A stretch of DNA of 33,844 nucleotides from an uncultured Desulfobulbaceae bacterium (GTDB taxonomy: Bacteria; Desulfobacterota; Desulfobulbia; Desulfobulbales; CALZHT01). The translations under genes were made by a program, and so were the position numbers. This document shows, piece after piece, positions 4,894 to 32,156 of the stretch. Location of the stretch: positions 1 through 33,844 of the forward strand of contig CALZHT010000027.1 of the NCBI GenBank assembly GCA_945787445.1, given 5' to 3'. The notes under the pieces were generated by a model. That model saw only the letters and a program-made list of their open reading frames with translations, ran no database searches and was not told the origin of the DNA. Position 1 is the first letter of the stretch. The number at the start of each line of letters is the position of its first letter.

Positions 4894-4913
4894 AGGCTAA
4901 ACAAGGAGTAAGG

Positions 4914-5159: not shown

Positions 5160-5160
5160 T

Positions 5161-5616: not shown

Positions 5617-5622
5617 AAAAAA

Positions 5623-14159: not shown

Positions 14160-14190
14160 TCCAATCAACCAATCAACTAATGAACGAATC
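14160..14190 (+). repeat. AATCAACC repeat spanning the exosortase start
   Basis: CCAATCAACCAATCAACTAA continues into ATGAACGAATCAATT, so the start codon and first residues of the exosortase lie within the repeat, with no Shine-Dalgarno sequence. Confidence 0.6.
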
Positions 14191-15016: not shown

Positions 15017-15654
15017 AAGTTAAGTTAATTGTCATATGTGTCGTGTTTCTTGTCACCTGTATTTTCGTATACAGAAACACTGAATCAGTATCAATTACCA
15101 AGAAGACACCGCTAAAGCCTTATTTTGCAAATATTGAAGGATATAAACTCCTCCGTTATATTGATTTGGCTAATGATGCTATCAAGATGTTGGATTTGGA
15201 TGATTATGTCTATGCCGATTACGAAGGGAAAAATGGAAAAGTAAGCCTATATATCGGATATTATTATACCGCCAACAAAGTGTACGCCTCCCATTCTCCT
15301 ACAATCTGTTACCCCAGCCAGGGGTGGAAAATAGATAAACAACCGACCAACCACTCCATTAGTTTAGGTCCTCATCGAATTCATTATAATGAAATTATCA
15401 CATCCTATATCGAAGAACAGGAGCTGGTTTTATACTGGTATCAGTCTCGCTTTCATACCAACACCAAGAACTATATGAACAAGATAGATATGGGATATAA
15501 CAAGCTCAAAAATAACGATGAAAAGCACGCCTTTGTAAGAGTTTCAGTACCGTTAGGCAACTCTACATATAAGGAAGCAAATAAAGTTGCGACAGGCTTT
15601 ATTCAGGCATTTTATCCGCAATTTATTGATTTTATTACTGAGGCTGGACATTAG
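15001..15654 (+). CDS. epsI: EpsI, exosortase-associated protein
   Basis: The TTG at 15001 is preferred: AAGAG lies about ten bases upstream and it gives 217 residues beginning 'MGNKIKVKLIVICVVFLV', a single membrane anchor. A frame open from 14923 would overlap the exosortase much further and start inside its helices. The conserved 'HSPTICYPSQGWKI' with Cys103 is the EpsI signature, and 'YNEIITSYIEEQELVLYWYQ' fits the family. EpsI is either separate from or fused to exosortases and is thought to act in EPS export or sorting; its chemistry is not established. It overlaps the exosortase by 16 bases and is the last gene before a terminator. Confidence 0.9.
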   Translation: MGNKIKVKLIVICVVFLVTCIFVYRNTESVSITKKTPLKPYFANIEGYKLLRYIDLANDAIKMLDLDDYVYADYEGKNGKVSLYIGYYYTANKVYASHSPTICYPSQGWKIDKQPTNHSISLGPHRIHYNEIITSYIEEQELVLYWYQSRFHTNTKNYMNKIDMGYNKLKNNDEKHAFVRVSVPLGNSTYKEANKVATGFIQAFYPQFIDFITEAGH

Positions 15655-16388: not shown

Positions 16389-17165
16389 ATGAAGATAGTC
16401 GTATTAATAAAAAGTGTTCCTGATACCGCATCAATTTTTAAAGTTGCAGAGGATAATAAATTTGTAGTCATCGGTAACCCAAAATTTATTATGAGTCCAT
16501 ATGACGAGTATGCTCTGGAAGAGGCCATAAAGGTAAAAGAATCTGTCTCCGGGGAAGTGGTTGTTGTGAGTTTTGGTGACGAGAATGCCCTGGAAGTCAT
16601 GCGTACAGCTTTGGCTGTTGGCGCAGATTCAGCAATTCTCGTTGAAAATTCTGATGCAGATAGCTTTACTGGTAAAGGGGTCTCCAAGGTATTGGCTGCT
16701 GTTATAAAAACACTTTCACCAAACATCATATTCGCAGGAAAACAGGCCGTGGATGATGATGGTTGTCAAGTCCCGGAGCGTGTGGCAGAGATCCTGGGGA
16801 TCTCCCATGCCTCAGCGGTTACCCGCTTTGAACTCCAAGGATTGACAGCTGAGGCGGACCGTGAAGTTGAAGGGGGGTATTGCACTATGGAAATAACATT
16901 TCCTGCGCTGTGTACTGTTGAAAAGGGAATAAACACCCCACGATATCCGACATTGCCAAACATCATGAAAGCAAAGCGAAAAGAAATTAGGAAAATGACC
17001 CTGGAAGAGTTAAATCTCAGTGCAGATGATGTCAGACCTGGTCTGACAGTGAACTCTATCTCCCTCCCCCGACAGGAGCGTCTTTTGAAAAAACTGGAAG
17101 GAGAGATTGGCGCCCAGGTAAAGCAACTGACCTCCATTCTCCGTGAAGAAAAAATTGGTTTATGA
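16389..17165 (+). CDS. etfB: Electron transfer flavoprotein beta subunit
   Basis: This 258-residue protein begins 'MKIVVLIKSVPDTA' and continues 'NPKFIMSPYDEYALEEAI', 'GKQAVDDDGCQVPERVAEIL' and 'RYPTLPNIMKAKRKEIR', the ETF-beta pattern. GAGGG lies six bases before the ATG. With EtfA it forms an FAD/AMP heterodimer that accepts electrons from acyl-CoA dehydrogenase-type enzymes. It starts the etfB-etfA-etfD unit; the nearest dehydrogenase is the ACAD-like gene at 21533. Bifurcating ETFs are the alternative, but the membrane-anchored FeS partner two genes on favours simple transfer to quinone. Confidence 0.95.
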   Translation: MKIVVLIKSVPDTASIFKVAEDNKFVVIGNPKFIMSPYDEYALEEAIKVKESVSGEVVVVSFGDENALEVMRTALAVGADSAILVENSDADSFTGKGVSKVLAAVIKTLSPNIIFAGKQAVDDDGCQVPERVAEILGISHASAVTRFELQGLTAEADREVEGGYCTMEITFPALCTVEKGINTPRYPTLPNIMKAKRKEIRKMTLEELNLSADDVRPGLTVNSISLPRQERLLKKLEGEIGAQVKQLTSILREEKIGL

Positions 17166-17181
17166 TAAAAGGGGATTCTTT

Positions 17182-18144
17182 ATGAGTATTTTAGCACTGA
17201 TAGCACAACAAGGCGAACTGAAGAGCTCAGCTCTCGAAGCGGTGTCCGTAGCAAATCAGATCGCCCAAAAAGCGGATATGCAATTGATCGCTGTTTACAT
17301 TGGCCCACCCTTGGCTGATCAGCTAAAAAGGCTCGAAGGTTTTGGAATAGAAAAGATTGTCGTTTTTGAGAGTGAAGCTGTTACGTACTATCAAAACGAC
17401 ATTTGCGTGCCGATCCTTCAGAAACTAGTTACAGAATTTGATATTAAGGTAATCATCGGATCTGCCACATCAATTGGCAAGGAGGTCTGTGCCTCTATAG
17501 CTGCAAAACTGGATGCGGAATTGATTCAGGACTGTATTGAGGTAGATTGGGACGATGGCCTGCAAGCAAAGAAACCAATTTTTGCTGGAAAGATCATTTC
17601 TGATATCAGCTTTACAAATATGCCTGCCATAATTTCCGTACGCCCGAACATTTTACCGGTTATCAGGAACAGAGAAGGTGCTCCTGAAATTATAAAACGT
17701 GAGATGCCCCACGTGCCACATGCTAAAAGTATAAAAAATATAGTGAGAGAGGCAAAAAGCGGGGTTGAATTGACTGAGGCTAAGGTAATAGTTGCCGGTG
17801 GACGAGGGATAGGTGGCCCGGAGAACTGGCCTGTTCTTCAGGAGTTATGTGATGTCATGGGTGCCGCGCTGGGCGCGAGCAGATCCGCTGTTGATGCCGG
17901 CTGGATCCATCATACTCATCAAATTGGCCAGACCGGGAAAGTGGTCAGTCCTGATCTGTATATCGCTTGCGGTATCTCTGGAGCTATTCAGCACCAGGCA
18001 GGCATGAGAAACTCCAAGGTCGTCGTGGCTATCAACAAGGACCCTGGTGCCGAAATCTTCAGTAGTTGTGACTATGGGATTGTTGGCGACCTTTTTGAGG
18101 TCGTACCCCTGCTGACAAAGGAAATGAGAAAGCTTTTATCATGA
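17182..18144 (+). CDS. etfA: Electron transfer flavoprotein alpha subunit
   Basis: The ATG at 17182 has AGGGGA seven bases upstream and gives 320 residues; a GTG at 17143 in the same frame would overlap etfB. The C-terminal FAD domain is clear: 'VIVAGGRGIGGPENW', 'GASRSAVDAGWI', 'QIGQTGKVVSPDLYIA', 'GISGAIQHQAGM' and 'AINKDPGAEIF'. It is the FAD-binding partner of EtfB. Its stop overlaps the start of the next gene (ATGA), so the two are coupled. Confidence 0.95.
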   Translation: MSILALIAQQGELKSSALEAVSVANQIAQKADMQLIAVYIGPPLADQLKRLEGFGIEKIVVFESEAVTYYQNDICVPILQKLVTEFDIKVIIGSATSIGKEVCASIAAKLDAELIQDCIEVDWDDGLQAKKPIFAGKIISDISFTNMPAIISVRPNILPVIRNREGAPEIIKREMPHVPHAKSIKNIVREAKSGVELTEAKVIVAGGRGIGGPENWPVLQELCDVMGAALGASRSAVDAGWIHHTHQIGQTGKVVSPDLYIACGISGAIQHQAGMRNSKVVVAINKDPGAEIFSSCDYGIVGDLFEVVPLLTKEMRKLLS

Positions 18145-20114
18145 CAATTGGCAACATCATCATACTGGTTTTACTTAGCGCCTCTCTCTCCTTTTTTTCA
18201 TTTCGCCTCTTGCATTTACTCAAACTGATCGCCCTTGGCCAGGGTGCGTTGCCGTTAGATCGAAAAGCCCATCGAATCAAACGGTTATTGATTGATGGAT
18301 TTGGGCAACGCCGTGTTCTTAAACAGTTTTCCGGAGTTGGTCATTTCTTCATCTTTTGGGGATTTTTCTTTGTATCCTTTGGTACTATCGAAGGCTTAAT
18401 ATCAAGCATAATACCTCGGTTTTCTTTTTCCTTTTTAGGTGACCCCTTCTATTTGTTTATGAATTTTGGCCAAGATGTTTTCGGACTATTTGTCATTGGC
18501 GCACTTCTGGTCTCATTATACAGACGATTTGTTATCCGTCCTGTCCGGATGGAAGGAGCATTTTCTCATACTGTTGACGCACTTATAATCATCACCCTGA
18601 TTTTTGTCTTGCTTATAATGTCTTATGGGATGCGTGTCATTGATCCCAAACCAGGCTGGACGCCAGTGGCAGATGTGCTGCGTGAGTTTATTTTCCACGG
18701 AACAGTCAGCTCAACTTCATACAGTGTGGCTTATGCTAGTTTTGAATGGATACACCATAGCGTTGTTTTATGTTTTTTAATTTATATTCTCTACTCAAAA
18801 CACACCCATATTTTATTTGCGTTACCCAACATTTTCCTGAAACCTGACAAGCCTCTAGGTTTGATTGAAAAATTGGACCTGGAGGATGAAACCGTGGAGC
18901 ATTTCGGGATTCAGGGCATCACCGATTTTACAAAAAAGGATCTCCTTGACCTGTTTGCCTGTACAGAGTGCGGCCGGTGTCAGGAAGCCTGTCCCGCTTA
19001 TATTACCGGAAAACCATTAAGCCCGAAAAAGGTTATCCTGAACCTCAAGGAACATTTACTTGAGGCAGGGCCAGCGCTGTTAAAGAAATCTGAAACAGAA
19101 TTTTCTCAACCCTTATACTCCGATGTCATTAATAAAGATATGCTGTGGTCTTGTACTACTTGTTACGCCTGCGAAGAAGCTTGCCCTGTTGGCATCGCCC
19201 CCATGAAGAAAATTATAGGGATTCGGCAAGCACGAGTTCTCATGGAAGGCGATTTCCCGGAAGAGGCCCAGCGAGCCTTGCGGAACATTGAAACACAATC
19301 TAATCCTTGGGGACTTCCCCAGCAACAACGAGGTCAATGGGCAGAGGGACTGGGGATAAAGACCCTGGCTGAAAATCCTGATGTAGAGTACTTATTTTTT
19401 GCAGGGTGTGCCGGATCCTATGATCAACGGTATATTTCAGTGAGCAAAGCAATAGCAGCAATTCTCCAAAAGGCGGGAATACAATTTGGAATTCTTGGCA
19501 ATGAGGAGTTGTGCACCGGTGACAGCGCCAAGCGTATTGGCAATGACTATCTTGCCCAGGAGTTAGCTGTTGCCAATATTGCAATATTTAATCGTTATGG
19601 AGTGAGGAAAATTATTACATCGTGTCCTCACTGCTTCAATACCTTAAAAAATGAATATCCTGAGTATGGCGGTTGTTTTGAAGTTATTCACCACTCAGAC
19701 TTGATAGTTGATCTCATTACAAGTGGAAGGCTTCAACCTCATTCCCGACTTCCTGTCGATACAAAAAAAATAACCTACCATGACTCCTGTTATCTTGGGC
19801 GATACAATCAAATAATGGATGCGCCTAGAGAAGTAATCGCTCGCCTGAAAGGAAGCAAACTGGTTGAGCTCAAACGCAACCGGGAAAATAGTTTCTGCTG
19901 TGGTGCAGGTGGTGGCAGGATGTGGATGGAGGAGAAGATAGGCACTGCCATTAATGTAGCTCGTTCGCGGGAAATAATAGATTCTGGTGTCGATACAGTG
20001 GCAACAGCATGTCCTTTCTGCATGAACATGCTGGCTGACGGAATAAAACAAGAAGGCAGAGTGGAAGAAATTAAGATTCGTGATATCGCGGAAATCGTTG
20101 CTGAAGCGTTGTGA
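18141..20114 (+). CDS. EtfD-type membrane iron-sulfur oxidoreductase (ETF:menaquinone route)
   Basis: This 657-residue protein has an N-terminal membrane domain of five or six helices (about residues 1-225), similar to the heme-binding NarI-like domain. A dicluster ferredoxin domain follows: Cys274/277/280/284 ('CTECGRCQEACP') and Cys338/341/344/348 ('CTTCYACEEACP'). Two CCG-type domains come next, the second with 'HDSCYLGRYNQ' and 'FCCGAGGGRMW'; the first is reduced ('FFAGCAG'). This architecture belongs to the HdrD-like oxidoreductases encoded with etfBA that pass electrons from ETF to menaquinone. The four-base overlap with etfA supports a complex. A terminator follows at 20168. Confidence 0.92.
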   Translation: MTIGNIIILVLLSASLSFFSFRLLHLLKLIALGQGALPLDRKAHRIKRLLIDGFGQRRVLKQFSGVGHFFIFWGFFFVSFGTIEGLISSIIPRFSFSFLGDPFYLFMNFGQDVFGLFVIGALLVSLYRRFVIRPVRMEGAFSHTVDALIIITLIFVLLIMSYGMRVIDPKPGWTPVADVLREFIFHGTVSSTSYSVAYASFEWIHHSVVLCFLIYILYSKHTHILFALPNIFLKPDKPLGLIEKLDLEDETVEHFGIQGITDFTKKDLLDLFACTECGRCQEACPAYITGKPLSPKKVILNLKEHLLEAGPALLKKSETEFSQPLYSDVINKDMLWSCTTCYACEEACPVGIAPMKKIIGIRQARVLMEGDFPEEAQRALRNIETQSNPWGLPQQQRGQWAEGLGIKTLAENPDVEYLFFAGCAGSYDQRYISVSKAIAAILQKAGIQFGILGNEELCTGDSAKRIGNDYLAQELAVANIAIFNRYGVRKIITSCPHCFNTLKNEYPEYGGCFEVIHHSDLIVDLITSGRLQPHSRLPVDTKKITYHDSCYLGRYNQIMDAPREVIARLKGSKLVELKRNRENSFCCGAGGGRMWMEEKIGTAINVARSREIIDSGVDTVATACPFCMNMLADGIKQEGRVEEIKIRDIAEIVAEAL

Positions 20115-20403: not shown

Positions 20404-21261
20404 ATGAAAATAAAATATTTAATATCAATATTTATGCAGTTCAGCTTAATTTTAATTATTGGATGCAACGGAGGAGAAATGTCAGAAAAAAACTATCAGT
20501 TGGCAAGAATCGAAGACGTACCTGCTGCTAATTGGGAAAAACTTGCACAGAAAAAGATATACTTTGGCCACCAATCTGTTGGCTACAATATTTTTCAAGG
20601 TATTAATGACCTGATGAAAGAAAACCCTAAGATCAAGTTGAATATTGTTAAAACTTCTGACGAATCAGATTTTAGAGGCGGCATTTTTGCTCACTCAGGC
20701 GTAGGTAAAAATGGTTTTCCCAAATCTAAAATTGATTCATTCGCCCAGTTCGTTGAGAAAGGCATTGGAAAGAATGCGGACATTGCTTTTTTTAAATTCT
20801 GTTATGTGGATATCAGAACAGATACCGAAGTCAAGGATGTTTTCAGCCATTACAAAAAAACCATGTTAGAACTAGAGAAATCCTATCCGGACACTCAATT
20901 TGTTCATGTTACAGTTCCACTCACTACTGAACTCACAGCATTTCAAGTTTTTAGCAAGAAAGTTAAAATAATAATTGGGAAGTTTACAGGAAAACCTGCT
21001 TGGTTCCTTCCAAAAGGCAATCAACAAAGAAACATGTTCAATGAAATGCTTATACAGGAATACGATGGAAAAGCTCCCATTTTTGATCTGGCAAAGTTTG
21101 AATCTACATACCATAATGGTACACGTTGCTCGTTTAAAAATGATGGAAAGACTTATTATTGCATGGTGCCGGAATACACCGAAGACGGCGGCCACTTGAA
21201 TGAAACAAGTCGGAAGAAAATTGCCGAACAACTTCTGATATTCCTCGCAAGTCATATTTAA
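20404..21261 (+). CDS. SGNH-hydrolase-like lipoprotein
   Basis: This 285-residue protein has GGAGGG five bases ahead of the ATG, a signal peptide and lipobox 'LIIGC' (lipidated Cys21). The body fits an SGNH/GDSL hydrolase: 'YFGHQSVGYNI' with candidate Ser58, 'FFKFCYVDI', 'HVTVPLT' and 'DGGHLNE' with candidate Asp261 and His264. Such enzymes remove or transfer O-acyl groups, and an envelope lipoprotein in an EPS locus could edit acylated polysaccharide. A second possible start, ATG 20479, has a perfect GGAGG just ahead and would give a cytoplasmic form. The N-terminus is duplicated as the remnant at 16074. Substrate unknown. Confidence 0.75.
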   Translation: MKIKYLISIFMQFSLILIIGCNGGEMSEKNYQLARIEDVPAANWEKLAQKKIYFGHQSVGYNIFQGINDLMKENPKIKLNIVKTSDESDFRGGIFAHSGVGKNGFPKSKIDSFAQFVEKGIGKNADIAFFKFCYVDIRTDTEVKDVFSHYKKTMLELEKSYPDTQFVHVTVPLTTELTAFQVFSKKVKIIIGKFTGKPAWFLPKGNQQRNMFNEMLIQEYDGKAPIFDLAKFESTYHNGTRCSFKNDGKTYYCMVPEYTEDGGHLNETSRKKIAEQLLIFLASHI

Positions 21262-21532: not shown

Positions 21533-22678
21533 ATGGATTTCTCTTGGTCCGATGATCAATTGAACCTGAAAGAATCCGCAATTAAATTTGCTAAAAAGGA
21601 GTTAAATAATCAACTCATTCAACGAGATCAGAGGGGAGTATTCTCCCGTGAACTCTGGGAAAAATGTGCTGATTTTGGCGTACAAGGTATGGCATTTCCA
21701 GAGAAATATGGGGGCATCAACGCGGATATCTTAACCACAATGCTCGTCATGGAGGGATTGGGTTACGGGTGTAAAGACAACGGTTTGATATTCGGGATCA
21801 ATGCCCAAATGTGGAGTGTTCAAATGCCTATCTTGAGGTTCGGCTCCGATGCTCAAAAGAGTAAGTACCTGCCTAACCTTTGTAGCGGAAAATGGATAGG
21901 GGGCCATGGAATGACGGAACCTGATTCGGGTTCCGATGCCTTTAGTCTAAGAACTTCAGCAAAATTGAAAAACGGGTGTTATATACTAAACGGCACCAAA
22001 ACATTTGTGACCAATGCTCCTGAGGCCAATGTGTTTCTCGTTTTTGCCACCGTCGATAAAAAGTTAGGATTCATGGGTGTTACTGGATTTATCATAGAAA
22101 AAGACTTTCCTGGTTTTCATGTAGGTAAACCAATTGAAAAAATGGGCTTAAGAACAAATAATATGGCTGAATTGATACTTGAAGATTGCGAAGTGCCGGT
22201 GGAGAACCGGCTCGGGGAAGTTGGCAGTGGAGCCGCCGTGTTTAATGACTCCATGGAGTGGGAGAGGAGTTGTATTTTAGCCAGCAATTTAGGCGGAATG
22301 GAAAGACAACTCGAGATGTGTATCAACTATGCCAAAGAACGCAAACAGTTTAATAAACCTATTGGGAAATTTCAAGCCGTGGCCAACAAAATTGTGGACA
22401 TGAAAGTTCGACTGGAAACCTCCCGCCAAATTTTATACAAAGTTGCATGGTTAAAGAAAACTGAGAGCCAAGCGGTTATGGACGCTGCCATTGCCAAATT
22501 ATACTTGAGTGAAGCATGGGTAAAATCGTGTCTTGATGCGATTCAAATTCATGGCGGTTATGGCTTTACAACCGAATTTGAGGTAGAGCGAGATCTCCGA
22601 GATTCTATTGGAGGGACATTATATTCAGGTACATCGGAGATTCAACAAAATATTATTGCACATCAATTAGGGCTTTAA
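21533..22678 (+). CDS. Acyl-CoA dehydrogenase-like enzyme, probable prolyl-carrier-protein dehydrogenase
   Basis: This 381-residue flavoprotein has AGGGAGG just before the ATG and the ACAD fold signatures 'GHGMTEPDSGSDAFSLRT', 'NGTKTFVTNAPEANVF', 'KERKQFNKPIGKFQ' and 'QIHGGYGFTTEFEVERDLRD'. The usual catalytic Glu of 'YEGTSEIQ' is Ser365 here ('YSGTSEIQ'). A Glu244 in 'EWERSCILA' aligns with the base of isovaleryl-CoA dehydrogenase, as expected for the PigA/PltE/RedW family that oxidises carrier-bound proline to pyrrole-2-carboxyl. An adenylation enzyme with a proline-type pocket and a carrier protein follow. Electrons probably go to the ETF encoded upstream. An ordinary branched-chain acyl-CoA dehydrogenase is the alternative, but no CoA-pathway genes accompany it. 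Confidence 0.8.
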   Translation: MDFSWSDDQLNLKESAIKFAKKELNNQLIQRDQRGVFSRELWEKCADFGVQGMAFPEKYGGINADILTTMLVMEGLGYGCKDNGLIFGINAQMWSVQMPILRFGSDAQKSKYLPNLCSGKWIGGHGMTEPDSGSDAFSLRTSAKLKNGCYILNGTKTFVTNAPEANVFLVFATVDKKLGFMGVTGFIIEKDFPGFHVGKPIEKMGLRTNNMAELILEDCEVPVENRLGEVGSGAAVFNDSMEWERSCILASNLGGMERQLEMCINYAKERKQFNKPIGKFQAVANKIVDMKVRLETSRQILYKVAWLKKTESQAVMDAAIAKLYLSEAWVKSCLDAIQIHGGYGFTTEFEVERDLRDSIGGTLYSGTSEIQQNIIAHQLGL

Positions 22679-22837
22679 TACTGTTTGGACCTCCCAAAGA
22701 AATGAGGGTATCGGTTGCTGGCAAAGGGAGTGGGATGAGTATTAGGAAAGTAAAAACATCGAATCAAATTTATTTAGTACCATTTTATTATGAGTATAGA
22801 AGATACAATACGATCTCATTGAAAAGGAGTTGGGATT

Positions 22838-24364
22838 ATGAGTTTAAAAGATCTTCTTGTCCTCAGTGCTAAACGTACGCCAGATGCTCTGGCCGTCAAA
22901 GGCCCTGATGAAAGCTTGACCTATGGTGAAATAGATCGACTGGCCAACCGTATAGCACGGGCGCTGGATGATTCAGGGGTCCGCAAAGGAGACCGTGTGG
23001 GGATCTGGCTCGACAAATCAGTGCGTGCTGTAGCGGCGATGCAAGGAGTTTTACGCCTTGGGGCAGCATATGTACCACTTGACCCGCTTTCTCCTGCCTA
23101 TCGTGTACGATCCATTATACAGGATTGTGATATGCGGGCGTTTGTGAGCACGGCAAAGGGTGCTGAAACCACGCTGACAGACAGTAACGCGAATGTGGCC
23201 AGCCTATGTACAGACAATACGGGACAAGGGTTGAGCTGGGATGACTTGCAGTCTTTTTCGGATGAGCCCTTTGAAGGGCCAAAGTCTGGAGAAAATGATC
23301 TTGCCTTCATATTGTACACATCCGGTTCGACTGGAAAGCCTAAAGGTGTCTGTATCAGCAACCTCAACGCACTAGCATTTATCGAGTGGGCTGGTGATGA
23401 AATAAAAGTAAATTCGGACGACCGCTTCTCCAACCATGCTCCATTTCACTTCGACTTGTCCGTACTGGATCTGTATGTAGCTTTCCGGGCAGGGGCCTCT
23501 GTCATTCTAATTCCCGACATGCTGTCATATGCACCCCGAAGATTGGTCAATCTAATCCAGCAGGAAGAAGTTACAATATGGTATTCTGTACCATCGGCAT
23601 TGATCCTCATGATGGAACAAGGCGGACTGTTAGAAGAGCAGACTATCCCGCTGCGAGCCATTCTTTTTGCCGGAGAACCGTTTCCCATCAAGCACTTGAG
23701 GCGGCTTTATGAACGTTGGTCGGCAGTGAGATTTTTGAATCTCTATGGCCCGACCGAAACGAATGTCTGTACTTTTTATGAGGTAAGAGGAATTAAAAAA
23801 GATCGCACTAAACCAGTTCCTATTGGACGTGGATGTTCTGGTGATCGGGTGTGGGCAGTTAAAGACGATGGCACTGAAACAAAACCAGGTGAAGAAGGGG
23901 AGTTGATGGTTTCGGGACCTACCGTCATGCTGGGCTATTGGGGACATCCAGCCCATGGCGACAAGCCTTATCCTACCGGTGATATGGTTCGGCTGGAGAA
24001 AGATGGCAACTACGACTACGTCGGTCGCCGCGATCATATGGTTAAGGTACGCGGCCACAGAGTAGAGCTTGGCGAAATCGAGGCTGCATTGGGGGGGCAC
24101 ACTGATATTCACGAGGTGGCGGTTGTAGTATCCAGTTCTGATATGAATACCCGTCTGATTGCCTTTATAGTCTGCAACGACAACACACGCCCGACGTTTC
24201 TGGATATCAAACGGCACTGTGCAGAGCGACTGCCACGGTATATGATTGTCGATGATGTTAGTTTTCTTAACGAACTTCCTCGTACAAGAAACGGAAAAGT
24301 AGATCGCCTTAAACTAAAACAGGATGCTGAAAATATTTATAAAAAGAAGGATGACATAAAATGA
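22838..24364 (+). CDS. Stand-alone adenylation enzyme, probable L-prolyl-AMP ligase
   Basis: This 508-residue NRPS-type adenylation protein has AAGGAG nine bases ahead of the ATG, 'LYTSGSTGKPKG' (159-170), 'HFDLSVLDLYV' (A4), 'LNLYGPTETNVC' (A5) and 'NGKVDRLK' with Lys487. Aligning by eye on the PheA pocket gives Asp206, Leu207, Leu210, Tyr249, Leu276, Ala278, Leu302, Val310 and Cys311: D-L-L-Y-L-A-L-V-C. From memory this is the code of the prolyl-AMP ligases of pyrrole pathways (RedM, PltF), distinct from the D-V-Q type of modular NRPS proline domains. It should charge the carrier encoded next, whose start overlaps its stop by four bases. It is unlike the ligase at 5623. Confidence 0.85.
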   Translation: MSLKDLLVLSAKRTPDALAVKGPDESLTYGEIDRLANRIARALDDSGVRKGDRVGIWLDKSVRAVAAMQGVLRLGAAYVPLDPLSPAYRVRSIIQDCDMRAFVSTAKGAETTLTDSNANVASLCTDNTGQGLSWDDLQSFSDEPFEGPKSGENDLAFILYTSGSTGKPKGVCISNLNALAFIEWAGDEIKVNSDDRFSNHAPFHFDLSVLDLYVAFRAGASVILIPDMLSYAPRRLVNLIQQEEVTIWYSVPSALILMMEQGGLLEEQTIPLRAILFAGEPFPIKHLRRLYERWSAVRFLNLYGPTETNVCTFYEVRGIKKDRTKPVPIGRGCSGDRVWAVKDDGTETKPGEEGELMVSGPTVMLGYWGHPAHGDKPYPTGDMVRLEKDGNYDYVGRRDHMVKVRGHRVELGEIEAALGGHTDIHEVAVVVSSSDMNTRLIAFIVCNDNTRPTFLDIKRHCAERLPRYMIVDDVSFLNELPRTRNGKVDRLKLKQDAENIYKKKDDIK

Positions 24365-24636
24365 AACAAACTGAAATTCTCGATGAGTTGAAAGGATACA
24401 TTTCACGTGAGGTTCTGGATGGCAAAGATGTCGGCCTGGACGAATCGACTCCGCTGCTTGAATGGGGGATTATCGATTCAATGGGGATGGCAAATATGGT
24501 GAGCTTTATTCAGAATCGGTTCCATGTTGAGATACCGGATGATATGATCCTTCCCGAGCACTTCATAAATCTGTCGGCCTTATCTAATTTGGTGGTATCT
24601 TTGACAATGGGAGGTAATGATATATCAGGATCGTAA
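24361..24636 (+). CDS. Peptidyl carrier protein
   Basis: This 91-residue carrier has the phosphopantetheine site 'GIIDSMG' with Ser40. The ATGA overlap with the adenylation gene indicates coupled translation and a direct partnership. In the proposed pathway, proline is loaded here and oxidised while bound. Its size fits the free-standing carriers of that module (PigG, PltL, RedO). The acp at 4914 is its counterpart for the other ligase. Confidence 0.88.
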   Translation: MKQTEILDELKGYISREVLDGKDVGLDESTPLLEWGIIDSMGMANMVSFIQNRFHVEIPDDMILPEHFINLSALSNLVVSLTMGGNDISGS

Positions 24637-24826: not shown

Positions 24827-25924
24827 ATGACATCCACGACCATAAGGCCGCTCACCCCTGATGATATGGAAAGAATGGAAGCGCTGCTACAGACACGCGA
24901 TGATACAGATCCACAAAAGACAAAAATGAGGTTAAAGATTTTATCGTGGTTGGCATTTGAAAACCCCTTCGCAGATGACCAACCAACCTATTTCATTGCA
25001 GACAACGGTAAAGAGATCATCGCTCATCTTGGCAAAATGCCGATTGAATTCATAATCGATGGCAGGCTCCAAAAAGGTTACTTTATCCACGATCTATTTG
25101 TTCACCCGAATTATCGAAAGAATGGAGGCGGTTTTTTTCTATCAATGCAATTATATCAGTCAGTTGAAAAAAGCCTGGATTCATTTGCATTGCTAATCTG
25201 GACCAATAAGCAGAACTTGGCAATGCAAAAGACGAGGGGTTATCATGAGCTCTATGCCGATCGCTACCGCAAATTCATCTACCCCGATTTGTTTCTGAAA
25301 AAACATATTAAACCGGATATATTGGCCCGCTTGAGTAGTTTCATTCTCCGAAAAATTATGACCGCCATTGATTGGATCTTATGTCTCCCGATACCTACAG
25401 GTATACCGGTTCGTAAGATCAAATCGTTGAGCGATCAATTTGATCGGCCGAATCCTAACCTAATTCAAAATATCGGTATATGCCCTTTTCCCAGTAGCCA
25501 ATACCTAAACTGGCACTACATTAACAACCCGTTTAGCGAGATGGAGATCTTGATTGCTGAAGAAAACGATCAAATACGTGGATATATCGTTTTATGCACC
25601 ATCTTGACGGAATCACATCATGAGGGTTTCATCGTCGATATTATGGTTAATCCCAATGATAAACGAACCCTCCGCTCTCTACTCAGAGCCAGCGTGAAAT
25701 ACATGCGCTCTGAGAATGTCAATTCCATTAGGTGTTGTCTGAGTGATCCAAAATTGTCTCGATTTTTGAAAAGCTGGCTGTTTTTTAGGAATAATTTTAA
25801 AAAGGAACCGATTATGCTCGCCAACTTTAGCAACCACGAAGAACATTCAAGATTAATAGATATTCGCAATTGGCATATAACATACGGTGTTTCGGACGCA
25901 TTTGTATTTAAGCCGTCCGAATAG
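24827..25924 (+). CDS. GNAT-family acyltransferase
   Basis: This 365-residue protein has GGGGAA about seven bases before the ATG. The first half is a GNAT domain with 'YFIHDLFVHPNYRKNGGGFFLS' split around the acyl-CoA pyrophosphate loop near residues 94-103; the second half ('EMEILIAEENDQIRGYIVLC', 'GFIVDIMVNP') looks like a second, diverged GNAT unit. Double-GNAT proteins in EPS loci acylate sugar amines or related acceptors. Directly after a carrier-protein module, it is a candidate for moving the carrier-bound acyl group onto a sugar; two deacetylases that could expose the amine follow. Donor and acceptor are not shown by the sequence. Confidence 0.75.
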   Translation: MTSTTIRPLTPDDMERMEALLQTRDDTDPQKTKMRLKILSWLAFENPFADDQPTYFIADNGKEIIAHLGKMPIEFIIDGRLQKGYFIHDLFVHPNYRKNGGGFFLSMQLYQSVEKSLDSFALLIWTNKQNLAMQKTRGYHELYADRYRKFIYPDLFLKKHIKPDILARLSSFILRKIMTAIDWILCLPIPTGIPVRKIKSLSDQFDRPNPNLIQNIGICPFPSSQYLNWHYINNPFSEMEILIAEENDQIRGYIVLCTILTESHHEGFIVDIMVNPNDKRTLRSLLRASVKYMRSENVNSIRCCLSDPKLSRFLKSWLFFRNNFKKEPIMLANFSNHEEHSRLIDIRNWHITYGVSDAFVFKPSE

Positions 25925-25935: not shown

Positions 25936-27069
25936 TTGTTTTGCAATTCTATCTATCCGACTTTTATTAAAGACTCTATCGTATCTCGTATAGCCAATAG
26001 TGCAGGGGTGCGCGTGACTTTGAAAGCGATTATAAAAAAAAAATTATGTAAAATAATCTGTCAGCTAGGATTGCCTAAGTTGATGCATAAAAGCATTGCT
26101 GAAAACGATTTGACGATTATCACTTATCATGGAATTGTAGACGAGCCACTAAAAATATTTGACTGGTGTTTTCTTGATAAAGATTCATTTCGTGAACAAG
26201 TTGTCTATCTGAAAAATCATTTTAATGTTGTTCAACTTTCCAAAGCAATCGAGTTAATCATAAATGGACAGCTTGAAAATTCAACTGCTGTTATAACCTT
26301 TGATGATGGGTTTCAAAACAATTTTGATGTTGCTTACCCAATTCTAAAAGACGCTGGAGTGCCTGCAACAATTTTTATATCAACTGGGTATGTTGATACG
26401 GAGGATACCATATGGTTTTGTAGGCTCAATCAAGCCTTCAATAGATCATTTAAGAGAGAGCTTCATTGGAATAGCCATTGCTTTAACATCGAAGACATAG
26501 AGAAAAAATATATTGCATCATCTAAAATAACATTCGAATTGAAGGCCTTACCACATTCTCGGCTGATAAAAGAAGTTAAATCGATAATCTCTCAGCTAGG
26601 TGACAACTTTCATGAACCAGTTGGCTTGGATTCCCCTTATCGCATGCTATGCAGTAACGCAATTAAAAAAATGGTGGAGTCAGGTTTGATAGAATTTGGT
26701 GCCCATACACATACTCATGCAATTTTGAGCCCCCTGCCCTCAAAGGAAAAACAAAAAGAAATAATAAAATCAGTTTCAGAGCTTGAAAAGATAACCAAAA
26801 CACCCTGCAAACTTTTCGCTTATCCTAACGGTGGCGCTGCTGACTTTGATAATGAAACTATACGTATACTTAAATCATTAGGGATTAATGCGGCTGTTTC
26901 AATGATACCAGGTCCTAACTTTTCTGACACTCAACTCTTGCAACTTAGACGTTATTCGGTAGGTGCTGATACAAACATTGAACAATTCAAAACAATTGTT
27001 CATCATTTGGATTGGACACTTAAAAAATTCTATTTAAATAAAGGCAGTAAGAATCAAGTGAGATATTAA
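25936..27069 (+). CDS. Polysaccharide deacetylase (NodB-like)
   Basis: The NodB homology domain is clear: 'TFDDGFQNNF' with Asp123/Asp124, the metal motif His-x3-His in 'FGAHTHTHAIL', and 'KLFAYPNGG'. It probably removes N-acetyl groups from a polysaccharide or a lipid-linked sugar. The start is uncertain. TTG 25936 follows TAGGG and gives 377 residues; GTG 26008 or 26014 would also leave the domain intact, since conserved sequence begins at 'LTIITYHGIVDEP'. No signal peptide is obvious, so the site of action is unclear. Confidence 0.88.
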   Translation: MFCNSIYPTFIKDSIVSRIANSAGVRVTLKAIIKKKLCKIICQLGLPKLMHKSIAENDLTIITYHGIVDEPLKIFDWCFLDKDSFREQVVYLKNHFNVVQLSKAIELIINGQLENSTAVITFDDGFQNNFDVAYPILKDAGVPATIFISTGYVDTEDTIWFCRLNQAFNRSFKRELHWNSHCFNIEDIEKKYIASSKITFELKALPHSRLIKEVKSIISQLGDNFHEPVGLDSPYRMLCSNAIKKMVESGLIEFGAHTHTHAILSPLPSKEKQKEIIKSVSELEKITKTPCKLFAYPNGGAADFDNETIRILKSLGINAAVSMIPGPNFSDTQLLQLRRYSVGADTNIEQFKTIVHHLDWTLKKFYLNKGSKNQVRY

Positions 27070-27136: not shown

Positions 27137-27955
27137 ATGTTTCAACCTCTGATTTTAGAGATTTACCGATCTATATTATTCAAGAGAATCAAACTTTTGG
27201 ATTCAGACAGTCTTAAAGGGAAAACAATTGTGTTCGCACCACATCAGGATGATGAAACACTTGGTTGTGGAGGAACAATTTATTTGAAAAAACAGGCCGG
27301 AACCTATGTGAAGATAGTTTTTTTTGCTGATGGATCTAATTCACATTCAGGGCTGATTGCAAGAGATAAATTACGTAATATTCGAGCATCGGAAGCTGTA
27401 GCCGCCGCAAGTGACCTTGGTGTTGAGGAAAAGGATATAATATTCCTTGGATATGAAGATGGAAAAATAGATGAGAATAGAGATAGTGCCATAACACAAG
27501 TAGAGGATATCCTTAAGCAGGAGGAACCTAAACATATATTCATTCCATCTTTGAATGAACCACCGATGGATCATTGGGCAACCGCTGAAATTGTGATTTC
27601 CGCTTTGGAAAAAATGACTTTTCCTACAAATGTATATGAATACCCGGTTTGGTTATGGCACCAGTGGCCTTGGACAAAAATTGATTATGCTGGGTATCGA
27701 AAGATTACTTTGTGGAAGAAGATGATCAAGAGTGCTCCAGGATTTAGCTCAATATTTCAGTTCAGGTATGGCGTAAATATTAAGAATATACTGAATGTGA
27801 AAAAGAGTGCTCTCAAAAAGCATCGATCCCAAATGACACGCAATCAATCCAATCCAGCAGCGGAAATACTTCCCGACGTAGGCGATGGTACTTTTTTAAA
27901 TTGTTTTTTTACTGATTATGAGGTGTTTAGGAAAATCGGCGATTGTCACCCCTGA
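27137..27955 (+). CDS. PIG-L/LmbE-family deacetylase
   Basis: This 272-residue protein has 'VFAPHQDDETLGCGGT', the zinc site His36/Asp39 with catalytic Asp38, and a later 'PMDHWATAEIV' supplying the third zinc His. The family hydrolyses N-acetylglucosamine-type amides. AAAGG lies six bases ahead of the ATG. Paired with the GNAT enzyme, it could expose a sugar amine for re-acylation, as PIG-L enzymes do in other pathways. Substrate not determined. Confidence 0.9.
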   Translation: MFQPLILEIYRSILFKRIKLLDSDSLKGKTIVFAPHQDDETLGCGGTIYLKKQAGTYVKIVFFADGSNSHSGLIARDKLRNIRASEAVAAASDLGVEEKDIIFLGYEDGKIDENRDSAITQVEDILKQEEPKHIFIPSLNEPPMDHWATAEIVISALEKMTFPTNVYEYPVWLWHQWPWTKIDYAGYRKITLWKKMIKSAPGFSSIFQFRYGVNIKNILNVKKSALKKHRSQMTRNQSNPAAEILPDVGDGTFLNCFFTDYEVFRKIGDCHP

Positions 27956-28115: not shown

Positions 28116-29210
28116 ATGAAAATTACCTTTGTTCTTCCTTTTGTCACTCTAGCGGGTGGAATCAGAGTGGTTGCCATCTATGCTGATCGATTAAAAAAAC
28201 GGGGGCATGAGGTATTTGTTATTTCAACTCCCAGTCAACAGCTCACGCTTAGGCAAAAGATTAAAACCTTGCTTAAGGATAAAAGATGGCCCACTCAAAA
28301 TCATGGTGCTTCCTACTTCGATGATATTGATATAGAACATAAGGTGCTTGAAAGCTATCGACCGATAACTAACGACGATGTTCCGGATGCAGATGTTGTT
28401 ATTGCCACATGGTGGGAGACTGCCGAGTGGGTGAATACTTTTGACAAATCTAAGGGCCTTAAATTTTATTTTGTTCAAGGCCACGAGGTATTTCAAAATC
28501 AATCAATTGAAAGGATAAAATCAACTTATCGATTACCTCTAAAAAAGATTACAATTTCAAAATGGTTGATGAATATTATGGATGAAGAATACGGTGACAA
28601 GGAAGTTTCTCTTGTGCCCAATAGTGTTGATTACGACTTTTTTAATTCACCGCCAAGAGGAAAGCAATCCAATCTGACTGTCGGTTTTATGTATTCACCT
28701 CTACCTTTCAAGGGCTGTGATATAATTATCGAAGCTTTGAAAAGAGCCCGGAAAAATATTCCAAACCTTAAAATTCTTGCTTTTGGCTCAAAGAGGCCTG
28801 CACCTGAACTACCCCTACCTACCTTCACAGAATTTTATTACAGGCCTAAGCAGGAAAAAATTCGAGAAATCTATAGCTCCTGTGATCTGTGGCTTTTTGG
28901 GAGTCGTGCAGAAGGATTTGGACTTCCCATATTGGAAGCAATGGCATGTCGGACTCCCGTAATAGCCACACCAGCCGGAGCAGCACCCGAGTTATTAAGT
29001 AATGGAGGAGGTGTTCTCCTTGGCGATTATACTGTTGACAGTATGGTAAAAGCGATACTGAACATTAATAATATGCAGGAATCTCATTGGGAGACAATGT
29101 CTGAACAGGCATACGAGAAGGCTAAAAGCTATTCATGGGATGACGCAACCGTATTATTTGAAAAAAGCCTTCTGAAATACCTTAATGTTGAACGTAAGCT
29201 ACAGCAGTAA
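28116..29210 (+). CDS. Glycosyltransferase family 4 (GT-B fold)
   Basis: This 364-residue protein begins 'MKITFVLPFVTLAGGIRVVA'; the C-terminal donor domain has 'VGFMYSPLPFKGCDIIIEAL' and 'GSRAEGFGLPILEAMACRTPVI', the E-x7-E motif of retaining GT4 enzymes. It should add a sugar from a nucleotide donor to a lipid-linked intermediate; with rmlABCD nearby, a rhamnosyl donor is possible but not shown. No Shine-Dalgarno precedes the ATG. It is the only obvious stand-alone glycosyltransferase in the window, so others must lie outside. Confidence 0.9.
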   Translation: MKITFVLPFVTLAGGIRVVAIYADRLKKRGHEVFVISTPSQQLTLRQKIKTLLKDKRWPTQNHGASYFDDIDIEHKVLESYRPITNDDVPDADVVIATWWETAEWVNTFDKSKGLKFYFVQGHEVFQNQSIERIKSTYRLPLKKITISKWLMNIMDEEYGDKEVSLVPNSVDYDFFNSPPRGKQSNLTVGFMYSPLPFKGCDIIIEALKRARKNIPNLKILAFGSKRPAPELPLPTFTEFYYRPKQEKIREIYSSCDLWLFGSRAEGFGLPILEAMACRTPVIATPAGAAPELLSNGGGVLLGDYTVDSMVKAILNINNMQESHWETMSEQAYEKAKSYSWDDATVLFEKSLLKYLNVERKLQQ

Positions 29211-29597
29211 TAATTTTGATCCGCTTCTTCCCTGAGCGAAGATTTACTGACTGTGAAAACTTAATAAATATTTTGATAGCTTTATACAACAATATAACAA
29301 AACGTTTTTCATTTTGAGGCCTTTTCACAAAAACAAATTGCTCATACAATTTTTGCAACCAAAGTGAGACGGATAAAACCTTGACCATTGATATGCCGAT
29401 TTTATGACTTTTCATGATATATAAAGGGTGTTGAAAAGTAGCTTACTTAAGCCAAATTTCAAATCTCCGTGATGCTGTTTCAGCATTTTTTTGTCAGTTA
29501 TCTTTATTATTGGTCGGTGTCTAAACTTATCAAGACCGTTTTTAAGAGTATTTAATCTGCATACCTACAAACGCACCGATTTTTAGGAGGTAAGAAA
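29211..29597. other. Intergenic region before the sulfotransferase
   Basis: Apart from the terminator at 29472 and the sulfotransferase Shine-Dalgarno at 29585, I see no gene or element in these 387 AT-rich bases. Confidence 0.4.
29472..29492 (+). terminator. Rho-independent terminator
   Basis: ATGCTG (29472-29477), loop TTT, CAGCAT (29481-29486), then a run of T residues. It ends the transcript upstream of the sulfotransferase gene. Confidence 0.7.
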
Positions 29598-30581
29598 TTG
29601 GCTAGGAGAAGATTACCCGATTTTATCATTATTGGAGCTGCGAAGTGTGGGACTACATCCTTACACGAATATCTATCTATGCACCCAGAAGTATCAGTAG
29701 GTGATACTAAGGAAGTTTTTTTTGCTGACCCAAAAGAACCCGAGTTTTTTGCGATTGATTCTATATACGAGAAAGGTCTCGATTATTATTCAAAACTGTT
29801 TTCTTCAGCAGGAGAAGACCAAATATGTGGTGAAGCATCAACTATTTACACATTATATCCGCAATTCCCTCATGTCGCATCCAGAATTTCAGCGGCTATT
29901 CCTAATGTCAAATTAATATACATCATGAGAAATCCTGTTGATCGCGCATATTCCTTTTATGTACAGCTAGTTCGAAATTATCAAGATGCTTCACGCAAAT
30001 ACGTAGTTTCGCGCACTTTTGAGGAATGTGTTTTCCCAGACAAGTATCCATACAGAGCTAATAGAGATAATTTTTTTGCCCCCTTTGATGAACATCTCAA
30101 AGATGAACCTGGAACATTTCTAGATGGCGGCAATTATCATACACAAATAACACAGTATCTTAAATATTTCGATAAAAGCCAGATGTTGCTTTTGTTATTT
30201 GATGATTTTATTCATTCTCCTGATTTGGTGCTTAAAGAGGTGTGTGAATTCCTTGCTATTGATAGCAGCTTTAAATTCACGGAAAAAGGCAAAGTGAAAG
30301 AGAATATTACAAACGATTATTTCACGAAGGTACAAAGAAACTTAACTATAGAATCACTGAAAAACTTCCCTTTCATTCAAAAAATCGGAAAGCATTTGCC
30401 AGAAAAAGTTAGTAAGGAGATAATAAATTTTTTTATGAGTATTGGTAACAAGAAGACCAATGTTGACTGGTTACCAAAAAAGATGTTATCAGAGACCAGT
30501 ATCTATTTAATAAATTATTATTCTGATGAAATCAAACAATTGGAGAATTTATTGGAAAAAGATTTATCTCATTGGAAATGA
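29598..30581 (+). CDS. PAPS-dependent sulfotransferase
   Basis: The TTG at 29598 is the start: AGGAGG (29585-29590) lies seven bases ahead. The 327-residue protein has the 5'-phosphosulfate loop 'IIGAAKCGTTSLHEYLSMHP' near residues 11-30 and the 3'-phosphate motif 'YIMRNPVDRAYSFY'; 'LLLLFDDFIHSPDLVL' is also typical. It should transfer sulfate from PAPS to a hydroxyl or amine, here most likely on the polysaccharide. It lies after a terminator and may have its own promoter in the gap before it. Confidence 0.93.
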   Translation: MARRRLPDFIIIGAAKCGTTSLHEYLSMHPEVSVGDTKEVFFADPKEPEFFAIDSIYEKGLDYYSKLFSSAGEDQICGEASTIYTLYPQFPHVASRISAAIPNVKLIYIMRNPVDRAYSFYVQLVRNYQDASRKYVVSRTFEECVFPDKYPYRANRDNFFAPFDEHLKDEPGTFLDGGNYHTQITQYLKYFDKSQMLLLLFDDFIHSPDLVLKEVCEFLAIDSSFKFTEKGKVKENITNDYFTKVQRNLTIESLKNFPFIQKIGKHLPEKVSKEIINFFMSIGNKKTNVDWLPKKMLSETSIYLINYYSDEIKQLENLLEKDLSHWK

Positions 30582-30727
30582 ATTATGAATATTCTGATTT
30601 AAAATCCATTAGGATTATTAATTGTAGAAATAGAACTGTAATCAGCTCCGCAAAAACAAACATTACAACTTTACTCATCCTCTGTTTAAAAATTCTATAT
30701 TTGACCAGAAACTGATAAAAAAATCTT

Positions 30728-32026
30728 ATGCAATCCCTCGGGAAATTAGCAGCAAGAAGTACATTTTGGACCTTTTTAGGTTATGGTGCAAACCAGGTAT
30801 TGAGGCTTGGAAGCAATCTTATCCTTACACGGCTACTCGTTCCGGAAATTTTCGGGCTGGGTGCCTTGATCAATACATTTATAATTGGCCTAAATATGTT
30901 TTCTGATATTGGTATTGGGCCTAGCATTATAGAGAATGAGCGTGGAGAGGAACCTTTATTTCTAAATACTGCATGGACAATCCAGGTTTTGCGCGGTGTA
31001 GCGATTTGGCTGTGTGCTTGTATTTTCGCTTGGCCTTTTGCTCGATTTTATGGTGAACCACAACTAGGTTGGCTCATTTTTGTTTCAGGGATTACAGGAG
31101 TAATTGCAGGCTTCAATTCTACGGGGATATTCACAGCAACCCGTCGTTTAATGCTAAAACGTCTTACCTTGATAGAGATCGGAACACATATGGTTTCGAT
31201 AGTTGTTGTAATCGGTTGGGCGTTGATTACTCCAACTATTTGGGCATTTGTTGCAGGATCTTTATTTAGTACATTTTTCAAGATGCTCGCAAGTCATCTT
31301 TTGTTGTCTGATGTCAAGCATAAATTTATATGGGATAAGAATTCTGCTCGATCCTTGGTAAAATTCGGCAGGTGGATATTTGTCAGTACTGTCTTGGGAT
31401 ATTTAGCCCTACATATTGATAGACTTGTTCTTGGTAAGTTTTTAAGCCTAAAAGAGTTAGGAATATATTCAATTGCTTCAATGATTGCAAATACTATACA
31501 GCAACTATTTGGAGCTATGGGTCAGAGAGTTCTTCTCCCTCTTTATTCCAAGTTAAAAAAATTACCGGCTAGTGAATTACGGAGAAAAGTTCTAAAACTG
31601 AGAATCCGGCTATTATTAATATATTTGCCACCCTTATTCATATTTGTGATTTTCGGCCCAGAGATAATAACTTTGCTCTATGATCCTAGATATCAAGAAG
31701 CAGGCTGGATATTGCAAACTCTTTCTATAGGTCTAATAATACTGGTAGGTACAGCGTTAGGACCAATAGTATTATCATTTGGAAATTCTTATTTATATAT
31801 GAAACTTATTGCTTCTAGGGTATTTTTTTTATTAGCTTCAATGTTATTTGGTGGTTATTATTTTGGAACTCGGGGAGTCATTATAGGAGTTGCATGTTCT
31901 CCGATTTTTTACTATCCATTCCAATCGGCCGTTTATAGGAGATATTCCGTTTGGTTTCCACATGTAGATGCACTTTGTATTTTTACACCATTATTGATAG
32001 TATTTGTATTCATGTACTTAGTGTGA
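30728..32026 (+). CDS. Oligosaccharide flippase (Wzx/MOP family)
   Basis: This 432-residue, strongly hydrophobic protein begins 'SLGKLAARSTFWTFLGYGANQVLRLGSNLILTRLL' (shown for residues 3-20 and 21-37 as one continuous match to the family opening), followed by 'PEIFGLGALI' and about a dozen membrane helices. It should flip the lipid-linked repeat unit to the periplasm before polymerisation. No Shine-Dalgarno is evident before the ATG. The Wzy-like gene follows, as in Wzx/Wzy pathways. Confidence 0.9.
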   Translation: MQSLGKLAARSTFWTFLGYGANQVLRLGSNLILTRLLVPEIFGLGALINTFIIGLNMFSDIGIGPSIIENERGEEPLFLNTAWTIQVLRGVAIWLCACIFAWPFARFYGEPQLGWLIFVSGITGVIAGFNSTGIFTATRRLMLKRLTLIEIGTHMVSIVVVIGWALITPTIWAFVAGSLFSTFFKMLASHLLLSDVKHKFIWDKNSARSLVKFGRWIFVSTVLGYLALHIDRLVLGKFLSLKELGIYSIASMIANTIQQLFGAMGQRVLLPLYSKLKKLPASELRRKVLKLRIRLLLIYLPPLFIFVIFGPEIITLLYDPRYQEAGWILQTLSIGLIILVGTALGPIVLSFGNSYLYMKLIASRVFFLLASMLFGGYYFGTRGVIIGVACSPIFYYPFQSAVYRRYSVWFPHVDALCIFTPLLIVFVFMYLV

Positions 32027-32156
32027 AAGCATGGATTTGTAATTTACTTTATAAGGTTTGACAACAATTGATGAACTTGAATAATCAACAGAGATCATTT
32101 CCTTATCTTTTTGAACAATTGATAGCTTGCTATAAAAGGAAAATGGGAGAATATTA

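Follow-up and report, generated by a model that had tools for sequence, protein, structure and literature searches.

A predicted prolyl carrier module of the PltF type in an exosortase and exopolysaccharide locus of an uncultured Desulfobulbaceae bacterium

Modules of a free-standing prolyl adenylation enzyme, a dehydrogenase and a free carrier protein are known from the pyoluteorin and prodigiosin pathways as PltF/PltE/PltL, PigI/PigA/PigG and RedM/RedW/RedO, and for the pyrrolyl esters of clorobiocin and coumermycin a carrier-bound pyrrolyl group is moved to a sugar. Dlt D-alanylation and the PatA/PatB-type O-acylation systems form a second point of comparison. A preliminary description of one contig from an uncultured Desulfobulbaceae bacterium (CALZHT010000027.1; its 33,844 nt, ending at 33844, are called the window throughout) had proposed a complete prolyl-to-pyrrole carrier module inside an exosortase and exopolysaccharide (EPS) locus. 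Open reading frame (ORF) calls and Pfam domains confirmed the three neighbouring genes (381, 508 and 91 aa; Table 1), with the adenylation and carrier ORFs overlapping by 4 bp on the forward strand, and a search of all PDB sequences led to a member of a prolyl-carrier pathway as the best match of each of the three proteins. Judged by these families, the trio very probably makes L-prolyl-S-carrier and then oxidises the prolyl group on the carrier, and a prolyl, pyrrolinyl or pyrrolyl thioester as the module product, as suggested at the outset, is supported by the same matches.

The 508-aa adenylation enzyme contains the motifs YTSGSTGKPKG, YGPTE and NGKVDR, and its residues 206/207/210/249/276/278/302/310/311 read D-L-L-Y-L-A-L-V-C, exactly as first described. 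PltF (6o6e) shows DLLYLALVC in the same MAFFT columns (9 of 9 identical), in agreement with the code of RedM/PltF-type prolyl-AMP ligases, and PigI shows DLFYIAWVC. Against PDB sequences the enzyme scored 494 bits with PltF (E 3.7e-147), 237 with PigI and at most 216 with D-alanine ligases. For comparison, 20 loci besides the window were examined (12 genomes and 8 of 16 plasmid records; 5.4 to 51 kb each as retrieved), which had been picked by similarity to this enzyme and include several close kin; the other eight plasmid records represent additional strains of S. clavuligerus, Mycetohabitans and Methylocystis. The Brasilonema enzyme has the window's code, and DLFYLALVC was found in 8 of the 11 other locus rows of the pocket alignment, where 8 loci of 26-30% identity, taken from an 80-locus contig scan, served as outgroup rows that were dropped from the trees. 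A tree of 27 rows (none of them RedM, CloN4 or DltA) grouped the window enzyme with that of Brasilonema (72% identical; support 100/99), and PltF joined both at 98/96. The wider group also includes domains of non-ribosomal peptide synthetases (NRPS), and the substrate is therefore not proven by the tree alone. The identity as a DltA D-alanyl ligase, which had been named as an objection, was rejected with 264.3 bits for TIGR01734 (curated cut-off 559.85). The carrier has the attachment motif GIIDSM with Ser40 and matched the carrier of 6cxt with 53 bits (E 2.1e-13), PltL with 46, PigG with 35 and the D-alanyl carrier with 21. Based on the PltF match, the identical pocket, the PltF clade and the failed DltA membership, prolyl loading of the 91-aa carrier by the 508-aa enzyme is strongly expected.

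The 381-aa dehydrogenase has the acyl-CoA dehydrogenase (ACAD) fold, and its best PDB match was the prolyl-acyl carrier protein (ACP) dehydrogenase 4irn (482.6 bits, E 8.5e-144), which we take to be AnaB, with 322 bits for 6cxt (Bmp3) and 316.9 for 5zw0; the latter reached 702 bits with the PigA model (cut-off 500) and was treated as PigA. Leaving 6cxt aside, the best acyl- or butyryl-CoA dehydrogenase entry was 4l1f with 289.9 bits, and a dehydrogenase acting only on acyl-CoA, the second objection raised beforehand, is therefore not favoured. Glu244 (within MEWER) aligns with the catalytic Glu that is reported for AnaB and Bmp3 in excerpts of PMC10849742, and every one of the 27 rows in the clade holding the AnaB, PigA and Bmp3 enzymes has Glu at this position, as have three rows outside. 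Ser365 sits where another ACAD of the same genome (contig C21) has Glu, and that enzyme has Ser in the column of residue 244; the Glu244/Ser365 pairing is common to the window, AnaB, Bmp3 and 5zw0. An ordinary acyl-CoA dehydrogenase, served by a neighbouring electron transfer flavoprotein (ETF) and standing apart from the prolyl module, might be considered from the ACAD fold, the ETF genes nearby and the fact that the C21 ACAD adjoins the other ETF pair of the genome; against this stand the best matches, the residue pairing and the order ACAD, adenylation enzyme and carrier, which is the same in Brasilonema, and we regard this explanation as most improbable. Hardly more probable is that adenylation enzyme and carrier serve D-alanine or another amino acid while the dehydrogenase takes another amino-acyl or acyl thioester, since the window code is that of PltF and the DltA model and structures score far below cut-off and PltF, respectively. 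In its favour, the dehydrogenases of genomes G287 and G063 (55-58% identical to that of the window) are paired with DLFNHSISS, a non-proline code, and the dehydrogenase alone therefore does not fix the substrate.

Whether oxidation would stop at the pyrroline depends on the type of dehydrogenase. Excerpts of PMC3252866 give a pyrroline thioester as the AnaB product, and those of PMC10849742 give pyrrole for RedW, PltE and Bmp3. In a tree of 35 rows (PltE and RedW not among them; the Microvirga sequence located by tblastn), the PigA/Bmp3 clade (99/95) left the window dehydrogenase outside. In approximately unbiased (AU) tests, neither a position inside this clade (p = 0.095) nor a clade of window and AnaB (p = 0.27) was rejected; a single clade of the dehydrogenases from polysaccharide loci was not recovered and likewise not rejected (p = 0.121). 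The window enzyme is 54.5% identical to AnaB (4irn) and 41-46% to the PigA/Bmp3 set, and Asn90 and Trp94 match AnaB and none of the PigA/Bmp3 clade. A signature of the AnaB type from 15 positions was discarded as a one-sided count: in a count from both sides, the window follows AnaB and departs from every one of the five PigA/Bmp3 rows at 35 positions, and at 21 it follows four or five of those rows and departs from AnaB; as the outside row L101 gives 28 and 25, such counts do not decide between the two types. The equivalog models for PigA (NF053553; 446 bits, cut-off 500; 4irn sequence 409) and RedW (NF045652; 398 bits, cut-off 650; 4irn 377; reached by 0 of 17 scanned sequences) both left the window below cut-off. 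From the initial prolyl-to-pyrrole assignment, membership in the prolyl-carrier dehydrogenases thus stands, and pyrrole is one of two candidate endpoints: the tree puts the window enzyme outside the PigA/Bmp3 clade, with its inclusion not rejected, and the carrier-bound product would be either a pyrroline (two-electron) or a pyrrole (four-electron) thioester.

When the 29 ORFs of the window were scanned against family libraries, the proposed setting in an exosortase and EPS locus was borne out (Table 1), with the TIGR02602 exosortase above cut-off and RmlABCD together with the polyprenyl glycosylphosphotransferase; the XrtA model gave 177.9 bits for the exosortase, below its cut-off of 208. 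The 81-aa carrier and the ligase_PEP_1-like enzyme (4914-7149) look like a further acyl system of this locus that works with a carrier, and a PDDEXK_3 ORF (5047-5613) overlaps this carrier gene. At 7600-8646 a WbuX-like N-acetyl sugar amidotransferase was seen below cut-off, without the HisH/HisF-type partners that are annotated in the Rhodobacterales locus L112. The two membrane ORFs overlap in different frames (32157-33390) and may be one Wzy-like polymerase gene split by a frameshift or an assembly error.

Table 1. Features of the window
Feature	Position	Strand	Evidence or remark
Second carrier (81 aa, PP-binding)	4914-5159	+	separate acyl system
Acyl-CoA-ligase-like enzyme	5623-7149	+	ligase_PEP_1-like, 394 bits, cut-off 592
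RmlA, RmlC, RmlD, RmlB, polyprenyl glycosylphosphotransferase	8810-14156	+	EPS context; transferase TIGR03025 443 bits, cut-off 295.55
Exosortase (EpsH/Xrt family)	14180-15016	+	TIGR02602 192.8 bits, cut-off 105.55
DUF3485 after exosortase	14923-15654		
ETF beta subunit	16389-17165	+	Pfam ETF
ETF alpha subunit	17143-18144	+	Pfam; one of two in genome, 38% to other
EtfD-like or EtfAB:menaquinone oxidoreductase-like membrane Fe-S/CCG protein	18141-20114	+	5 hydrophobic (TM-like) stretches; proposed electron sink
Lipoprotein-like protein, 285 aa, probable SGNH fold	20404-21261	+	GHQSVG ... DGGHLN; candidate periplasmic esterase/acyltransferase
Predicted prolyl-S-carrier dehydrogenase (ACAD fold), 381 aa	21533-22678	+	Pfam Acyl-CoA_dh N/M/1; 4irn 483 bits; Glu244, Ser365
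Predicted PltF-type free-standing L-prolyl adenylation enzyme, 508 aa	22838-24364	+	Pfam AMP-binding and AMP-binding_C; code DLLYLALVC; PltF 494 bits
Free peptidyl carrier protein, 91 aa	24361-24636	+	Pfam PP-binding; GIIDSM with Ser40; 6cxt carrier 53 bits
GNAT-family protein, candidate N-acyltransferase	24827-25924	+	Pfam; directly 3' of carrier
Polysaccharide deacetylase	25936-27069	+	Pfam
PIG-L de-N-acetylase	27137-27955	+	Pfam
GT4 glycosyltransferase, sulfotransferase, Wzx flippase, two membrane ORFs (maybe polymerase)	28116-33390	+	

A pathway may be drawn from this arrangement as follows. The 508-aa enzyme would activate L-proline with ATP and load the 91-aa carrier, and the 381-aa flavoenzyme would oxidise the carrier-bound prolyl ring to the pyrroline or pyrrole thioester. 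Its electrons would reach menaquinone, and not O2, by way of EtfBA and the EtfD-like membrane Fe-S protein. The trio would thus provide an acyl donor for the polysaccharide that the neighbouring genes make. The acyl group could be attached to a de-N-acetylated sugar by the GNAT protein in the cytoplasm, or it could be moved across the membrane in a Dlt-like manner by the putative SGNH protein together with an MBOAT, which was not found among the scanned ORFs of the contig. This whole sequence of prolyl loading, oxidation, electron exit through ETF and EPS decoration is the explanation that we moderately favour; pocket code, clade and gene order are observed, prolyl loading is deduced from the families, and electron exit and decoration are proposed.

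Beyond the preliminary description are the EtfBA and EtfD-like genes upstream of the trio and the recurrence of such modules in other polysaccharide loci. The EtfB, EtfA and EtfD-like genes lie on the same strand as the trio, and EtfA is 3.4 kb away from the dehydrogenase gene. The best PDB match of the EtfD-like protein was the iron-sulfur-binding reductase 9ojn (421 bits), presumably mycobacterial EtfD. For Syntrophomonas wolfei, excerpts of PMC4324140 describe EtfAB and a membrane Fe-S protein (Swol_0696-0698) as proposed to pass electrons to menaquinone. The window-type EtfA was absent at E<=1e-75 from the other 192 genomes searched of the order. The genome encodes dsrA (576.6 bits, cut-off 392.85), and no COX1 or heme-copper oxidase was found above cut-off at 95.6% completeness, with cytochrome bd not searched; the bacterium is thus probably anaerobic, and an O2-independent oxidation of the prolyl carrier is plausible from the EtfBA/EtfD-like genes, dsrA and the missing COX1 match. 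Reoxidation of the flavoenzyme by O2, with EtfBA and EtfD serving something else, would alter only the electron route and is a serious possibility, if not the one we would choose: relatives are described as oxidases (in titles cited in PMC10849742), and the 20 other loci, in the lengths retrieved, contained no ETF genes, whereas the sulfite reductase of this genome, the lack of COX1 within the limits given and the divergent EtfA so close to the dehydrogenase speak for the ETF route.

As a query, the adenylation enzyme matched 6 of 395 phylum genomes (E<=1e-90) and 6 of 242 class genomes (E<=1e-85), the window's own included in both, as well as 4 of 41 genomes in the order of G304 (E<=1e-85) and 16 of 72,556 plasmid records (E<=1e-80). 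The PigA family matched 16 of the 395 phylum genomes at E<=1e-100, none of them over cut-off, and the six best (421-455 bits) were the same six that have the adenylation enzyme. All three parts occur together in 19 of the 20 other loci, the exception being G422, without a dehydrogenase in 39.4 kb. Seven of the 20 are polysaccharide loci (G304, G142, Microvirga, G287, G063, Pseudohalocynthiibacter and Roseovarius), the last two being near-identical Rhodobacterales plasmids with the same adenylation protein accession, and in three of the seven (G304, G142, Microvirga) the code is DLFYLALVC, one residue off that of the window. Elsewhere, G624 and G562 have HupE, radical SAM, adenylation enzyme, ACAD and carrier together, and Streptomyces microflavus and Mycetohabitans show a context of KASIII, ACP, adenylation enzyme and ACAD. 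Apart from the NRPS/PKS and prodigiosin-type settings given below, the other loci showed no readily recognisable context. As a separate observation, a HupE/UreJ-family membrane protein lies near ACAD, adenylation enzyme and carrier in loci L129, L130, L112 and L161 and looks like a small cluster of its own; L129 also encodes a radical SAM (HemN-like) protein, to which a protein of L130 is related. In L093 (7857-8840) and L094 (16137-17159) an arginase-family gene, recognised by Pfam in L093 and by sequence likeness in L094, adjoins the gene of a closely related dehydrogenase (55-58%), and the adenylation enzyme paired with it carries the code DLFNHSISS; possibly another amino acid decorates a polysaccharide there.

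The trio could also supply the starter for a diffusible small molecule, a pyrrole or pyrroline alkaloid, and lie in an EPS locus by chance. Several contexts agree with this: the trio stands in NRPS or polyketide synthase (PKS) clusters in Brasilonema, which has the closest adenylation enzyme, and in G515, which has the closest dehydrogenase, it lies in a prodigiosin-type cluster in Methylocystis, and in the Roseovarius polysaccharide locus an 8-kb NRPS gene adjoins it. The closest adenylation enzyme and the closest carrier (49%) are those of Brasilonema, yet its dehydrogenase is only 46% identical to that of the window, and the window dehydrogenase is nearest to G515 (59%), a genome of the same order; the module may have been assembled from two sources. 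Against an alkaloid, no PKS, NRPS or KAS family was found among the 29 window ORFs, although the remaining pathway could be on other contigs, and the module lies between EPS genes of the same strand and recurs in other polysaccharide loci. No large NRPS is visible in the genome either, as no ORF above 833 aa is among those carrying its 10 adenylation matches (227 contigs; one match begins 38 bases into its contig). Taken together, the alkaloid appears unlikely to us.

For the decoration step, two candidates adjoin the trio in the window. The 285-aa protein is encoded directly upstream of the dehydrogenase gene, and its single-sequence model (mean predicted local distance difference test, pLDDT, 54) yielded nothing at E<=0.001 in Foldseek, where 6se1 came first with E 3.2e-3. 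With VIA-align, the 13 best rows (Z 8.3-6.6) were esterases, lipases and O-acetyltransferases, among them a CE3 esterase (Z 8.3), PatB (Z 7.2) and a lipopolysaccharide acetyltransferase domain (Z 6.6), and unrelated folds began at Z 6.5; this low-confidence model thus suggests an SGNH-like fold. The GNAT protein (model pLDDT 33) has relatives of 22-26% identity in 8 of 326 phylum genomes besides the window's own; of five neighbourhoods fetched, three (L149-L151) have rhamnose- or polysaccharide-type matches to window genes and two have none. Since none of these five neighbourhoods of distant relatives contained the module, the rank of the GNAT protein as a specific pyrrolyl transferase was lowered. 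Fused DltB/DltD-like or PatA/PatB-like transferases offer a layout for comparison, which a protein of 880-900 aa with transmembrane (TM) and SGNH parts seems to resemble; it adjoins the trio in G142 and Microvirga (divergent in Microvirga). Over 876 columns the two versions share 35.7% identity; they have 10-11 hydrophobic stretches and end in an SGNH-like domain, which reached 30.5 bits with Lipase_GDSL_2, below the cut-off of 32.9. Membership of the TM domain in MBOAT was not confirmed, as neither a PDB sequence match at E<=1 nor a Pfam match was obtained; an MBOAT-like motif (SFTD[FY]WRR.NIYW.DF ... ATW.LH.YQ) was recognised by eye only. A profile of the fusion matched 28 of 395 phylum genomes (at most two candidates scored per genome), at full length only in G142, with the TM part alone in G020 and the SGNH part in the rest. 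Other transferase candidates were noticed in the polysaccharide locus L089, where two adjacent GNAT/FemAB-like (Acetyltransf_6) genes (4479-6433) and exosortase-hydrolase-like genes lie upstream of the trio; relatives of exosortase-associated hydrolases in L089 and L125 were below cut-off.

Decoration of the EPS by an oxidised prolyl group has to be weighed against several findings that count against it. Four of the seven polysaccharide loci are without the proline code (G287 and G063 with DLFNHSISS, Pseudohalocynthiibacter and Roseovarius with DIFFIGSMC), and to these are added the NRPS gene in Roseovarius and the NRPS/PKS clusters already mentioned. At E<=1e-85 the adenylation enzyme was not found in the two other searched genomes of the window's family, and none of the five GNAT neighbourhoods contained the module. 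No transferase for the acyl group was identified; no MBOAT was found among the scanned ORFs of the window up to the contig end, and the export step is therefore inferred in this locus. The genome of the window gave no match to the G142/Microvirga fusion. Finally, exosortase and EtfD genes were, like those for ETF, found in 0 of 20 other loci as retrieved, so that the link of exosortase, Etf and EtfD to the module rests on one locus. A recurrent class of surface-polysaccharide decoration, in which a Dlt-like membrane transferase with SGNH protein would move the oxidised prolyl group and an EtfBA/EtfD-like chain would replace O2, is a tentative and rather doubtful extension.

The setting of the module hints at an undescribed chemical decoration of surface polysaccharides; in an open-licence library no paper was found on exosortase and pyrrole, on exosortase and adenylation, or on pyrrole-2-carboxyl, polysaccharide and glycosyltransferase for such a system. 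If correct, bacterial surface polysaccharides would bear heteroaromatic or imine groups from a carrier-protein chemistry so far known from small molecules, and charge, metal binding, recognition by phages or grazers and reactivity of biofilm polymers could be changed. With a prolyl-carrier dehydrogenase coupled to ETF, a type of reaction that has been described for oxidases would also occur in anaerobes, and pyrrole chemistry of the antibiotic type would be combined with the way in which Dlt systems acylate wall polymers. The combination of PltF code, ACAD and carrier inside a polysaccharide locus can be used as a sequence test for finding more examples.

Compared with the PltF/PigI-type modules, the window likewise combines a free-standing adenylation enzyme with the PltF pocket, a free carrier and an ACAD-fold dehydrogenase, but it stands in no antibiotic or pigment cluster, its dehydrogenase was placed outside the PigA/Bmp3 clade in the tree (inclusion not rejected), and ETF and EtfD-like genes adjoin. 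AnaB/AnaC/AnaD of anatoxin-a are close with respect to the dehydrogenase, given its best PDB match and the shared Asn90 and Trp94; in contrast, no PKS was found in the window, and a clade with AnaB was neither recovered nor rejected. Clorobiocin and coumermycin are alike in placing a carrier-bound pyrrolyl group onto a sugar, although of a small molecule and not of a polysaccharide. With the Dlt and PatA/PatB systems the window shares a free adenylation enzyme with carrier and a putative SGNH-like protein, and the TM and SGNH fusion adjoins the trio in two other loci; it differs in failing DltA membership, in the additional dehydrogenase and in the MBOAT, which was not seen here and elsewhere was suggested by a motif where Pfam is silent. 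Adjacent EtfBA and a membrane Fe-S/CCG protein are found as in Syntrophomonas wolfei (Swol_0696-0698) and for mycobacterial EtfD (excerpts of PMC4324140 and PMC12855090), with the difference that the window set lies near a predicted prolyl-carrier dehydrogenase and not an acyl-CoA dehydrogenase. The families are all known; new are the place in which they stand together, the repeated finding of such modules among polysaccharide genes and the neighbouring ETF chain.

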